Below are positions 6,701 through 58,365 of a stretch of DNA of 64,000 bases, one piece after another. Position 1 is the first letter of the stretch, and the number at the start of each line of letters is the position of its first letter. The DNA lies in the NCBI GenBank assembly GCA_002189035.1, contig CM007989.1, positions 8,413,501-8,477,500 of the forward strand, written 5' to 3'. The notes under the pieces were generated by a model that was not told the origin of the DNA, ran no database searches, and saw only the letters and a program-made list of their open reading frames with translations. The translations under genes and the position numbers were made by a program. This DNA comes from Utricularia gibba (taxonomy: Eukaryota; Streptophyta; Magnoliopsida; Lamiales; Lentibulariaceae).

Positions 6701-8635
6701 TTCTCGAGACTGGAAGGCGGGCAGGGGGAGCAGAGAATTGGGGTTGGATGCTGCACCTGTAGAGGAACGTACACAAGATGATGATAATGCATTGTTAACT
6801 TCTTCACCATCCATGAAAAACAATAACTTATCTAGCAGTTTAAGGTCATTGCCACCACCGCCACCCCCATTTAGGAGTGGAGGCAGTCCTTTACCTATGG
6901 GTTCAGTGGATGATGACAGTAGAAGCAGGTCTCACAACCATCACAGGAGGATCGGAGATCCTAATATGGGAAGGATCCAGGGAAATATATGGCGAGGTGT
7001 TCCAACCTGGACTTCTCCCGTTCCAAATGGGTTTTTGCCTTTCCCTGCTCCACCTCCCGTGGGTTTTCATCCAGTTATGCAGCCATTTCCTGCTCCACCC
7101 ATGTTTGGTGTTCAGTCATCAATGGACTTAAATATGCACCCCTCTTATCAGATGCCAGACTCTGATAGATATTTTGGCACCGTGCGTCCAATGGGATGGC
7201 AGAATCAAGTAGATGATACTTGCCCTCCTATGCAGACCTGGGATGCCAATGGTGCAGTATTTGGAGATGAGTCTTACATATACGGGAGACCAGATTGGAA
7301 TCAATCCCAGAACACGGCCATCAGGAATGCCTGGGGGAGTCCACTGATGATGCTCGGAAAGGGGTGAATAATGATAAAAGCTTGGAAGCCCTGTCTGTTG
7401 GAAAAGAGAACACCTCCTTACGTGGAGCAGATGAAGGTAGTCAGTCGCAGGCAGATAGCACTGAGATTCATCTCTCAGCCAAAATCACTGAAAAGAATAA
7501 TGCTGCAGCCGGTCTTAATGGTGTGGTGTATAAGGATGGTTTTATTGAAAATGAAATGACGAAGCCTGTGTGCTTCTCCATTGCGTACCTCAGCAGGCTT
7601 GATGTTTCTGAAGATCTTGCTGAACCTGAACTATTCTCCAAGTTCGCAGGCTTGATGACCATGGATCAAAACACAATCTCTAACGTAGATGATTCCAAAA
7701 TTCTCTATTCGGAGGTAAATGTTTCAACCATCCTTTCTAATGCTCTTGGTTCGTTCACCTGCACGTGGACAGAGTTCAATCAACCCTTGTACTTACAACT
7801 GGTTGCAGGATTTAGGGACGAAAATCTCAGCCATTAGCTCCCCAAATAGCGCACTTTACCCATCGATTGATGAATCTGTTTTCCAGGTATTATTTGTACT
7901 ACTGATCGTATGATATCGAAAAGGAATGTTTTCCAAGTCAAAGTTTTGATTTTTAGTGAACCCATTTGTGCGGCGGGTATTTGCAGCGTGTGGGTTGGAG
8001 AGTGAAGGCTAAGAAAGACTGTCGTTCTGTATGAGTTGGAATAGCGTTCACTGTTTCTAAATAGATGGGGTATTTCGGGGTCTTCCATGCATCTAATGTC
8101 TTGGTGTTTCCGTTTCCTAGGCTGCATCTTGCTTTGTCCACTGACCTAATCTTTCTACCCGCAGAGATCGATAGCCCTCTACCAAAAACAGAAGCAAACT
8201 CTGCAGCCTAATGACATTGCAGGACTCGAATTGAATGACTCGGACCCAAAATCTGACCTTTACAGCACAGATACCAAATCTGCGAATCTGCGCCTGGCCA
8301 ACAACGCTCATGTATCACAGGACGGTGTTACAAACACCCCCACAGAGTTAGATGCAGTTGACTCACCAAAAACCAAAGATGCAGAAATGGACTCAGAGAT
8401 GCAGCCTTCATCTGATGCAAGCTCTGAAGGCATCATTTGTGCCTCGCATCCTGGTGCAAAAGATGATGAGTGCGGCATGGTTGGCAGTGACAAAGAGGAG
8501 GTGAAGCTGGTAGGTACTGCTGAATTCGGTGCGTTGGTTAATTCCGATGTGGTGGTGGTGGTGTCTGAGGCGAATATGCCCGCTGCGTCGTTGGGTTTGA
8601 GTCGGATACATCGTTCTCCTGAAAGTACACATTGA
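3777..8635 (+). CDS. Very large RS/KED-rich nuclear protein (plant ZC3H13-like family)
   Basis: Six exons: 3777-4521, 5058-6195, 6400-6598, 6690-7714, 7809-7886 and 8165-8635, about 1,215 residues. The N-terminus is a basic low-complexity opening (MPRTSRHKSHKQ). Exon 2 is almost entirely Arg/Lys/Asp/Glu with a tandem repeat. Exon 4 has a PPPPPPF run and a Pro/Phe-rich stretch with an IYGRPDWNQ motif. The tail has an ALYQKQKQ motif. These match, from memory, a plant family annotated as zinc finger CCCH 13-like, although I see no CCCH finger. Such proteins are thought to act in nuclear RNA processing; that is inference. The ATG at 3777 was preferred over 3750 because MPR..SRHKSHK is the family start. 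Exon 4 is 1,025 nt, one base short of a continuous frame; the break lies between about 7311 and 7364. Confidence 0.7.
5380..5775 (+). repeat. Degenerate coding tandem repeat, about 14-16 residues per unit
   Basis: Inside exon 2 of the RS/KED-rich gene a unit like YREDGEKDTRRKDD recurs roughly nine times with variation. At DNA level, GAKGATGGTGA and AAAGATGAYARRTAT recur at about 45-bp spacing. It encodes a charged, probably disordered or single-helix segment. It also opens a long false reading frame on the opposite strand. Confidence 0.7.
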
Positions 8636-8721: not shown

Positions 8722-9664
8722 TCATCTGTGAAGGGCGGGGCGGGGCGGGGCGGGGCGCTTTTGGGAATGACGAAAACAATACTTGAAAAAGACCCCGAAT
8801 TTATGAGTCAATTGCAAATAGCAACTCCAAGTCTCCACGAAGTCAAAGGGCCCCCAATCCAGAAACATGGCGGATATATCATCTTGTTTGAAGTAGTCAT
8901 CAATTGGCCGGAGGGGAGAGGACGAGGATGCGACGTCAGGGTCGGATACGCAAGACGGGATTACGTCCAACGGGAAAACATCATCGAAGAAACCCGCTTG
9001 CTCAAACAAGTCGGGTATGGCAACCGGGTTTCCGAGGTCGGCGAAGATGTCTTCTTTCCAAGGGAACACTGTTGTTGATAAACTCTCGCCGGGTGAGTTG
9101 TCGGGTTTTTGTGGTGAAACGGGGCGGAGGACGGAGCTGGGGGATTCGGCACTGTTCCGTTGTGACTCATCGCCAGAGTTGTGGCCGGGAGATTTTCTGG
9201 ACGCGGCCGCCTCCGGGATGGAGAAATTGGTGAGCGCGTTGGGCCACGGAGTTGAATGGCGGCGTGGTCGTACACCTTAGCGGCTTCCTCTGCCGTATCG
9301 TAGGTACCCAACCAAAGCCTGATACGCCGCCGGGGGACTCGAATCTCCGCCGCCCATTTCCCCCATCGCCTATGTCGCACGCCCCGGAACTTCTTATCCC
9401 CATTCGCCCTCCGGGCGCTGACGCGGGCACCACCACCCTTGTCGGGCTGGATCGTGACTTCATTCACATACCGGCGCACATGGCGACGGTTGAGGGACAC
9501 GTCCTCCTCGTCACTAGACGAATCAGTTGCGTCTTGGTCCGTCACGGAAATACGCAATGTCCTCCCGAGGACGAGGAGTGGGCTCTTGGTTCACCCGGAC
9601 AGCAACCGGCAACAACCGTAGTCCGAGTTACATGCTCACTGAACTTGACTCCACAGGGGAACAT
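8722..9664 (-). CDS. AP2/ERF transcription factor, cytokinin response factor (CRF) type, frame broken twice
   Basis: Intronless. Reading from the ATG at 9664: a CRF N-terminal motif (VKFSEH.TRTT), then the CRF hallmark [19 protein letters not shown], then one AP2 domain running from [19 protein letters not shown] to [11 protein letters not shown]. The C-terminal half (from [12 protein letters not shown] to [18 protein letters not shown]) lies in another frame. Adding one base near 9240/9241 turns GPTRSPISP into the family-typical GPNALTNFS and joins the two. A second single missing base is needed between the N-terminal motif and LRISVTD, at about 9557-9620. CRFs are nuclear DNA-binding factors induced by cytokinin and acting with the two-component pathway. 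It converges on the RS-rich gene: the stop codons are 87 bp apart. Either a recent pseudogene or an intact gene with consensus errors; I favour the latter. Confidence 0.75.
8733..8757. repeat. (GGGGC)n tract, potential G-quadruplex, inside the CRF 3' coding end
   Basis: Four consecutive GGGGC-like units on the plus strand. On the minus strand they encode the last residues of the CRF-like protein (RPAPPRPA). Four closely spaced G-runs satisfy the usual G-quadruplex pattern. Confidence 0.85.
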
Positions 9665-10260: not shown

Positions 10261-12357
10261 TCATGACCCCATTTTGGAGGTGCTTGCAGGACTCGCTCTC
10301 ACGTTCTCGATCATCTTCACCACCTCCGCCGTCTTCGGCCGCTGCTCTGGCAGCCTCCTTACACAGGCCAGCGCTATCTGCAGCATCTCCACCAGCTCCT
10401 CCTCGATGCCCGGCACCCGGAGCAGCTCCACGTCGAACACCTCGGCCGTCCACTCCTCCCTCACCACAGAATGCACCCACCTGACCAACACCCAAACGTC
10501 AAGACATGGTGGAATTTGGAATACGGCCTACTACCACCCGGGTGAGGTGACACACCTGACCAAGTGGACTATTTCGTCGCCATGGGTTGTCTGAACCGGT
10601 GATTTACCGGTAAGAAGTTCCAGCACCATCACCCCGAAGCTGTACACATCGCCCGCTTGAGTCGCTTTTCGGGTGTCTGTTACCTCCGGTGCTCGGTAAC
10701 CTGCAGCACGAGCCATCGGAGGGGATAGCGAGCTCATTATCATTGAAAGGCCAAGATCAGATATGCATCCAAATCCTTCAGAATTCCGGAAAACGTTGGT
10801 TGATTTTAAGTTCCCATGTATCAGCTTTCCGTTGTTCTCCTCGTGGATCCTGGCAAGGCCTCTTGCAGTTCCAAGAGCAATGTTTAGCCGGGAGTTCCAG
10901 TCGAGGAACTGCCTGCCGTCTCGCTTTCCTGCATCAATGGAGGAATACTCAGAGTATCAGATGTCCTACATTACAGAACCATGAAATTGCTCTTAAACCA
11001 TGACTCTCTCAAAGCTAAGAAAGATATAGACCAGAACAGAAGGCAACTGCGAAAGAAAAGCGATCCATGATCAAAGGCAGACCGCATTGCTCTTTAACAA
11101 ACGGAAGGGATGGCTAATACCAATACCATGAAGCATTGTTGCGACAGACCCTTGAGCGAAATAGTCATACACCATAAGCTTTTCATCCTTGGAGTAATAG
11201 TAAGCCCTGAGTGCAGTCACATTCTCGTGCTTGATACTTCCAACCAGATTCATATGTAGCTCGAATTCTCGTTTTCCGGCACTTACCTCTTTCACTCTCT
11301 TCACCACCACCATCGTCCCATCCTCGAGTATCGCCTTATATGATGTTCCAAATGTGCCTTTCCCCAAAACTTCTGCCGAAGCTCTCAGCAAATCCTCCAA
11401 ATCAAATGCATAGTCACATCCTTCAAAGAACACCAGTTTGTTGTTTGCTTCTTCATTTCGGGAGATCGATTTTTCCTGATACGCGTTGCCTTTTCCAGAG
11501 CTCCCCGGAAAATCATGATCCACGGCTTCTACTCTCAGTAAGCAAACAACTAAGAGAAGGCCAATGCATAGTAACCCGAAAATTGAGCCAGCAATTATGA
11601 TCCCAATCAACGCCCTTTCGCTTAACTTTGATTTCTGCTCAGGTGGAGCAACCACAAGAGGAGAATCAACAACTGAATACTCTAACAACGAATCATCATT
11701 TCCTATGAACCCAGATTTCGGAAACCTCTGAAGTGATTTAGGCACTCTACCACTGAGCTTATTGTAAGATAAGTTCAAGGACTGTAAATCCGCAAGATGC
11801 AGATCAGGAATCTCTCCAGAGAGTGAATTGTTGGCAAGATTTACCGACACAAGACGGTTTAAATTCCCCAAAGAACTGTGGATACTGCCATTGAAGGCAT
11901 TATTTGATAAATCAACTATAGTCAAATTGCTCCAAGCAAAGAAATTTAGAGGCAATGAACCTGAAAACCGGTTGCGCTGAAGATACAAAAAGGTCAGCCT
12001 TTCCAGATTTGCAAAGTCTTTAGGCAAATTCTCAGTTATTATATTCGATCTTAGGCTCAGAATCTGCAATGCTGATAAACGCCCCAAGGTTTTTTCAGGA
12101 ATGGGTCCACGAAAACCAAAGCCTGGAAGCCGTAGAGATACTACTCTGCTACCATCCGCATTGCAAGAAACTCCTGTCCAATTCTTGCATACCTGGTAAT
12201 TATCGTTCCAATTAAGACGACGCTTGTGAGCATGCCTGCTTGCGAAATCCAGCAATGCCTGCTTGTCGGCTTGAAGATCATCCCCAATGACAAAACCTAA
12301 AACTAGTGAAAAAAGAAGCAGGAGCAGGAACTTCAAAGGAAGATGAAGCTTCTCCAT
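10261..12357 (-). CDS. LRR receptor-like kinase, atypical (probable pseudokinase) type, LRR-III clade
   Basis: Exons 11127-12357, 10556-10928 and 10261-10480 give 607 residues. Order: signal peptide ([16 protein letters not shown]), LRR N-terminal domain with CKNWTGVSC, about five LRRs, juxtamembrane region, one membrane helix ([20 protein letters not shown]), kinase domain. The glycine loop ([11 protein letters not shown]) and Lys (VVVKRVKEV) are present. The catalytic HRD is replaced by HGNLKS and DFG by DLG, so phosphotransfer is doubtful. This pattern is normal for the family often labelled probable inactive receptor kinase At4g23740-like, which sits in the plasma membrane and scaffolds signalling. 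MEKLHLPLK at 12357 was chosen over an upstream in-frame ATG at 12408 because the signal peptide begins there. The second intron (10481-10555) is only 75 nt and has an 11-nt repeat at both ends. Confidence 0.88.
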
Positions 12358-56769: not shown

Positions 56770-57555
56770 TGTCAGTCAGGTTCTTTTTTGTATATACATG
56801 TTGCAGATGAAACAGCGCAAGGACGTCAGCTTGCTGTAGGTTCTGGAAGTAGTGGAACTCTTGATATAGTGTTTGTTGTATGATTATTAAGCTGTTAAAA
56901 GCAGTATCCATATGTATTGTAGGGAGATTTGTACTGATTTCGTTATTGGTTTCCTGATTCAAACTCTGAAAACCAACTCGTATAGCAGAACAACAGAGAG
57001 CTTGGGAATCCGTTGAGTTGGAATGCGGATCACCTGCCCACCTAAAACTGGTTCTTCAGAGTTGCTCGTGGTGCGCAATCCAGAGGTTTCTTTGAGGTGA
57101 AGGAAAAGTGTCTACAGTTCTGCTACTCCGTTCAACTTATTGGGTGCTGTGTGATTCTTGAGCAAAAGCGGAGGGTCGAGGCGTACGTGTGTTGGAGTGC
57201 TAGGACTGAAACCGCAGCACAAGAGAAGTTGGCCCAGCACAAGAAAAAATGGACGTGTAAGACACAACATGGCCGTTTCTCCAGGGTGTCCGACCACATA
57301 TCCCGTTTCCGCTGGTTTGGAGCCGGAGGTGGATGTTCCATGACTGGACACTGATGATGATTTTTTGACATAAGGCACACGCTACGTCAACACAACGCAA
57401 GCTTCATCGCAATTGCTCTCATCCCGGCTCAAATTTACTCCACAGGGAGGGCTACCGGATGGATACCACTACCGCGATGCCCCTCCCCTCATTCTTAATA
57501 TTATTTTGTTTCCCCACCAAAAAATAAAGAATTCAACTATTGCCATTTCCGCGAG
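56770..57555. other. Spacer between AHL and ERF genes
   Basis: 3' flank of the AHL gene and promoter of the ERF gene. Overlapping short frames on both strands around 57.1-57.4 kb have no motif. Confidence 0.4.
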
Positions 57556-57563
57556 TATATAAA
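57556..57563 (+). promoter_or_regulatory. TATA box of the ERF gene
   Basis: TATATAAA followed by GGGACGG, 131 bp before the start codon, the spacing expected for a leader of about 100 nt. Confidence 0.65.
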
Positions 57564-57693
57564 GGGACGGGGTGGGGGTGTCTGGCTTCATTTATTTGGG
57601 AAGCCTGAGCCAGGAGAATCGGAACCTTTGACATGTGGAAAAGAGCATCTAAACCACTTTCATAAATCTGTCTCCAGTCTGCATTATTGGAAG

Positions 57694-58365
57694 ATGGAGC
57701 CGCAGCTCCAGCCTTTCGCCGGCGGGGACCAGAGGCCAAGGAAGAGGCCCACCGACTGTGGAACTAAGCATCCGGACTACAGAGGCGTGAGGATGCGGAG
57801 CTGGGGGAAATGGGTGTCAGAAATCCGGCAGCCGCGGAAGAAAACGCGCATTTGGCTCGGAACCTATCCTACTGCGGAGATGGCGGCCCGCGCCCACGAC
57901 GTGGCTGCCATCAGCATCAAGGGATCCTCCGCGGTTCTCAATTTCCCTCATTTAAAGGACTCTCTTCCACGACCCGCCTCCCTGTCGCCTAGAGACGTGC
58001 AAGAGGCCGCAGCCAAGGCGGCGGCCATGCCCGTGGAGGACTTCACCATCACTCCTCCACTGCCACTCGCCGCCCACACCTCTCCTACTTCGGTTTCGAG
58101 TTCACGGGAGGCTAATGATGAGGATGATGATCTTGGGGAGTTAATTGAGCTGCCGAGTTTGAAGGAGATCGACGAGTGCCGGAGCGAATTCACTCAGGAG
58201 ATTGGCTCGGCGGAGGGATGGATGCAGCCGCCGTGGTGGGCGACGGCGGTAGAGAAAGACTTGTGCGAGTACTTTACCGAACAGGTGGGCGGCGGCGGTG
58301 AGAGTCTGATTAGCATCACATGCAGTTGCAGCTTCGAGACGACGGAATCATGGTGGATGAGATGA
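57694..58365 (+). CDS. AP2/ERF transcription factor, DREB A-4/TINY type
   Basis: Single exon, 223 residues from the ATG at 57694 ([11 protein letters not shown]); an in-frame upstream ATG at 57628 would add 22 non-conserved residues. A basic patch (PRKRPT) precedes one AP2 domain: [65 protein letters not shown] with Val at position 14 is the DREB feature, and the following [20 protein letters not shown] block is typical of A-4/TINY proteins. The acidic C-terminus ([25 protein letters not shown]) is a likely activation domain. Such factors bind DRE/CRT and GCC-like elements in abiotic-stress and ethylene responses. It is unrelated in subclass to the CRF gene at 9 kb. Confidence 0.93.

Follow-up and report, generated by a model that had tools for sequence, protein, structure and literature searches.

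The receptor-kinase gene on the minus strand of the window (the whole 64,000-nt stretch of Utricularia gibba DNA analysed here) carries an extra intron in its kinase C-lobe, intron 2, which is quite likely to be an ordinary spliceosomal intron, acquired by one LRR-III lineage at an AG|G-TGG site ahead of the block duplication from which the window gene and its duplicate on contig C496 derive. Once spliced, the ORF extends from 12357 (ATG) to 10261 (stop), with three exons and 608 codons, the stop included. Exon 1 (11127–12357), recognised from the spliced ORF with its ATG and from homology to the C496 copy, encodes the signal peptide, the LRRs, the transmembrane segment and the start of the N-lobe, and is followed by intron 1 (10929–11126; 198 nt, GT-AG, phase 1), upstream of the FLDW motif; exon 2 (10556–10928) encodes the kinase domain up to DEIVHLVR(AG), and exon 3 (10261–10480; dN 0.067 and dS 0.302 against the C496 copy) opens on the (G) and ends in KMGS and the stop codon. 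Between the last two exons, intron 2 (10481–10555; 75 nt, GT-AG, phase 2, GTGTGT...TTGGTCAG) splits the AGG (Arg) codon of HLV-R-WVHSV, just as the sequence-only reading of this DNA had proposed; its removal joins AG|G and leaves an intact ORF, and its retention would introduce two in-frame TAG codons that stop the frame. With a donor AG|GTGTGT, an acceptor TCAG|G and a branch-site-like TTGAC motif 18 nt upstream of the 3' splice site, it would work as a U2 intron; its GC content, 53%, is high for a plant intron. Splicing is predicted on three grounds: the reading frame, the conservation of the encoded protein, and the intron that the C496 duplicate has at the matching place.

By its motifs, we take the product to be an LRR-III-type receptor kinase with a short LRR ectodomain, in which HGN replaces HRD and DLG replaces DFG; HGN/DLG kinases are usually annotated as 'probable inactive receptor kinase'. 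In the tree, the window kinase groups with LRR-III-like paralogues, whose LRR-III identity is likewise presumed from motifs and not from an Arabidopsis reference sequence, and the intron ahead of FLDW fits LRR-III. The LRR-III HGN/DLG kinases, such as the Arabidopsis receptor-like kinase At4g23740, have in common with the window gene a short LRR ectodomain, a transmembrane segment, a kinase domain and one intron ahead of FLDW, whereas the window gene differs from them in the additional 75-nt C-lobe intron; a literature search on the intron structure of At4g23740 yielded nothing usable. A single common intron has been described for LRR-III genes in moss, lycophyte, Arabidopsis and rice, although the exact common one-intron structure is kept by only 64% of them (PMC5296948). 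Since nearly all of the LRR-III paralogue matches begin just past intron 1, and given this one-intron structure of subfamily III (PMC5296948), intron 1 probably occupies the position expected for the common intron, a correspondence of position and not of site-by-site alignment.

The closest relative of the kinase in the same genome (91% protein identity) lies on contig C496 (loci L011 and L028), within an inverted block of some 20 kb that is collinear gene by gene (window 1746–22440 against C496 133223–103292), and the window and C496 genes are therefore segmental or whole-genome duplicates. The block holds many genes, including an ERF-like gene adjoining the kinase; a second ERF-like ORF in the window (57499–58362, plus strand) also matches the ERF gene beside the C496 kinase. 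The C496 gene has an intron of 102 nt (118445–118546; ...CACTTGGTCAG|GTGCGCG...GTGTTGTTAG|GTGGGTGCATTC) at the identical nucleotide and in the identical phase. The exons of the two genes are separated by a dS of 0.557 and a dN of 0.086 (dN/dS 0.16), and the 100-nt flanks of the intron are 86% and 93% identical; the introns themselves are scarcely alignable beyond their ends and a 3' stretch, ATGTnTTGAC..TTGnGTGTTG, in which the TTGAC motif stands 18 nt (window) and 15 nt (C496) from the acceptor. Their global alignment score was matched by 1 of 5000 shuffles in which the first and last three bases were held fixed, and on this similarity the two introns are judged homologous. The C496 intron owes most of its extra length to the internal duplication of a 16-nt unit, its 3' end differs from that of the window intron by one indel and one change, and its junctions repeat AGGTG only (5 nt). 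Because the intron is common to both duplicates, at an identical site and in an identical phase, it was present before the block duplication and is hence fairly old. The sequence-only reading had proposed a possible 'recent' gain, which is contradicted by the same intron in a duplicate at an exon dS of 0.56 and by the strong divergence of the two introns; this divergence also makes a recent gene conversion, copying the intron between the duplicates, unlikely. In L011, at about 915–925 (C496 near 117,500), a 1-nt deletion beside a GGGGG run breaks the frame where exon 1 encodes the juxtamembrane region; it is either a sequencing error or the mark of an early pseudogene, and the dN/dS of the C496 kinase exons is still about 0.12–0.22. 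Elsewhere in the window, a short GGGGC tandem run (8734–8760; GGGCGGGGCGGGGCGGGGCGC), with G-quadruplex potential as judged by eye, lies just past a plus-strand ORF (8150–8632).

Among the LRR-III-like paralogues of this genome, intron 2 is present in the window and C496 copies only; 15 others (L010, L012–L023, L025 and L026) are open-frame through the site and intronless, with AGA, CGG, AAA, AAG, CAG or GGT at the position of the Arg codon, a count that refers to an incomplete genome set (G000; 516 contigs, the largest cut at 8.5 Mb) from which intron-bearing intermediates may be missing. The nearest intronless paralogues, L010 and L012, are grouped with the window/C496 pair with 98/95 support; they have no neighbouring genes in common within some 10 kb, and thus provide no synteny date for the gain. 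Scans of prokaryote genome contigs and viral contigs returned no plant-derived homologues. That close LRR-III kinases are intronless in this stretch, as the sequence-only reading had it, is in agreement both with the 15 paralogues and with the published one-intron structure (PMC5296948). In principle, losses on several occasions could explain the absence from the paralogues; nevertheless, with 15 of them intronless and the nearest two grouped with the pair, we infer, as the simplest reading, a single gain on the stem of the window/C496 pair. The earlier claim of an intron gain is thereby retained as a probable lineage-specific gain, older than the block duplication, and dropped as regards its recency and its derivation from an AGGT exon duplication. 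The same stretch harbours another intron in other kinases: in SERK/LRR-II and RLCK-type kinases (L039–L054), a phase-0 intron follows the Trp codon of xLVxW|V (TGG|GT), 4 nt downstream of the window site. This RLK-wide intron was considered as identical to intron 2 and rejected, being 4 nt off and in another phase; plant receptor kinases have acquired introns in this stretch on more than one occasion. That an old RLK intron was kept in this clade, or slid there by 4 nt, and was lost elsewhere could be argued from the proximity of the two sites, yet this is improbable, as the nucleotide and the phase differ, many losses would be needed across all the other LRR-III-like paralogues, and LRR-III genes of moss, lycophyte, Arabidopsis and rice have a one-intron structure (PMC5296948). 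Still harder to credit are two independent, parallel gains in both duplicates: AGG-TGG is indeed a proto-splice site, but the window and C496 introns are significantly similar (1 of 5000 shuffles).

The 11-mer reported across the donor and the acceptor of intron 2, TTGGTCAGGTG, was recovered at both junctions, each copy being an exact match of the form TTGGTCAG|GTG on the minus strand (donor side, 10553–10563; acceptor side, 10478–10488), with AG|GTG at both; without mismatch, it has no further occurrence in the 64,000-nt window. The exact repeat consists of 8+3 nt, and it extends to 14 nt if one mismatch is allowed. Its background frequency was estimated over about 299 kb of this genome, from pairs separated by 60–200 nt: among the approximately 16,700 random AG|GT...AG pairs, that is, those with AG before the donor, and with this intron excluded, 2 had a repeat of at least 11 nt across both junctions, and among about 270,000 GT...AG pairs there were 3, one of them this intron. 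With a textbook splice-site matrix, the estimate is 6e-5 per intron, which amounts to about 10 in 150,000 introns. The chance of an 11-nt repeat is therefore about 6e-5 to 1.2e-4 per intron, roughly 1 in 10,000, for a repeat that was chosen after the fact; it is unusual for a single intron, yet expected several to tens of times per genome. The donor and acceptor consensus already favour CAG|GT at both intron ends. A published survey reports direct repeats at the borders, or close to them, of all the introns that it covered (PMC11782384).

A recent origin of the intron in this gene from an exon segment with AGGT that was duplicated in tandem, as the sequence-only reading had it, would account for the exact 11-nt repeat across both junctions and for AG|GT at both sites, and in the model of tandem genomic duplication (Rogers 1989; Hellsten 2011; reviewed in PMC3443670) AGGT likewise stands at both junctions. 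In that model, however, the intron is a copy of the flanking exon, and a likeness between the intron body and the exons beside it is to be expected; the potato RdRp gene, a proven intron gain, illustrates what evidence of such a duplication looks like (PMC4974935). The bodies of the introns studied here do not resemble their flanks: when both introns were aligned locally, in both orientations, with the 200 nt on either side, the scores were no better than those of shuffles (264–996 of 1000 as good), and the match between the window intron and its exons is the 8-nt junction repeat alone. Together with the C496 copy, which keeps AGGTG and not the 11-mer, and with the presence of the same intron in that duplicate at the exon dS given above, these results make such a recent duplication very unlikely; the source could have eroded at this age, and exon duplication as the original event is without support. 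An alternative is an insertion before the block duplication, at an AGGT site and with a short direct repeat that the window copy keeps and the C496 copy has lost, either through end-joining at a staggered break or through a small DNA transposon with an 8–11 bp target duplication. The repeat of 8+3 nt (14 nt once a mismatch is allowed) and the 3' end of the C496 intron, one indel and one change away from that of the window, are consistent with it, as are precedents elsewhere: 43% of the gained Daphnia introns are flanked by short direct repeats (reviewed in PMC3443670), and introners with target site duplications, which can use these duplications as splice sites, are known (PMC9860276). On the other hand, introners have not been found in land plants (PMC9860276), neither intron has convincing terminal inverted repeats or another copy in the genome searched, as an introner or MITE origin would suggest, and a neutral intron-side copy of the repeat should have decayed by this age; an insertion of this kind is thus to be entertained only tentatively, and a lineage-specific plant intron gained by insertion, whose 11-nt target duplication has stayed recognisable through at least one block duplication, is doubtful. 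For the repeat itself, with the origin of the intron left unstated, we lean towards coincidence, partly imposed by the splice consensus (CAG|GT at both ends), which accords with the several to tens of such repeats expected per genome, with the sister copy that is devoid of the 11-mer, and with the report that direct repeats near splice sites are general (PMC11782384), even though the probability is still small for one intron taken alone and this intron sits in a lineage with an independently inferred gain. These assessments, as insertion scar or as coincidence, concern the repeat only, and both fit the history of an intron gained before the block duplication.

According to that history, a short intron would have entered at the AG|G-TGG (Arg-Trp) site of one LRR-III receptor-kinase lineage, after this lineage had diverged from the other LRR-III paralogues that the genome retains and before the block duplication; thereafter, both introns would have drifted, that of C496 growing by internal duplication. 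At this age the mode of origin is no longer readable. The 11-nt repeat, which stands at both intron ends in the window copy and not in the duplicate, may have been left by an insertion, or by end-joining that duplicated a small target, or may be coincidental. The lineage-specific gains reported at AGGT proto-splice sites in duplicated plant genes, in rice segmental duplicates (PMC1779517) and in potato RdRp (PMC4974935), resemble the present case in their presence in one clade and absence from relatives, GT-AG ends and intact coding sequence, and the window intron differs from them in being without an identified source and older than the block duplication. The window intron is an unremarkable case of a known kind. 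Few intron gains in plants are both proven and readable in their mechanism, and a recent one with intact duplicate ends would be useful; if an insertion with an 11-nt target duplication were true, this intron would be a dated example of insertion-type gain in an angiosperm. Its value here is that of a bounded case, with a gain that would fall after the split of the LRR-III paralogues and before the block duplication.
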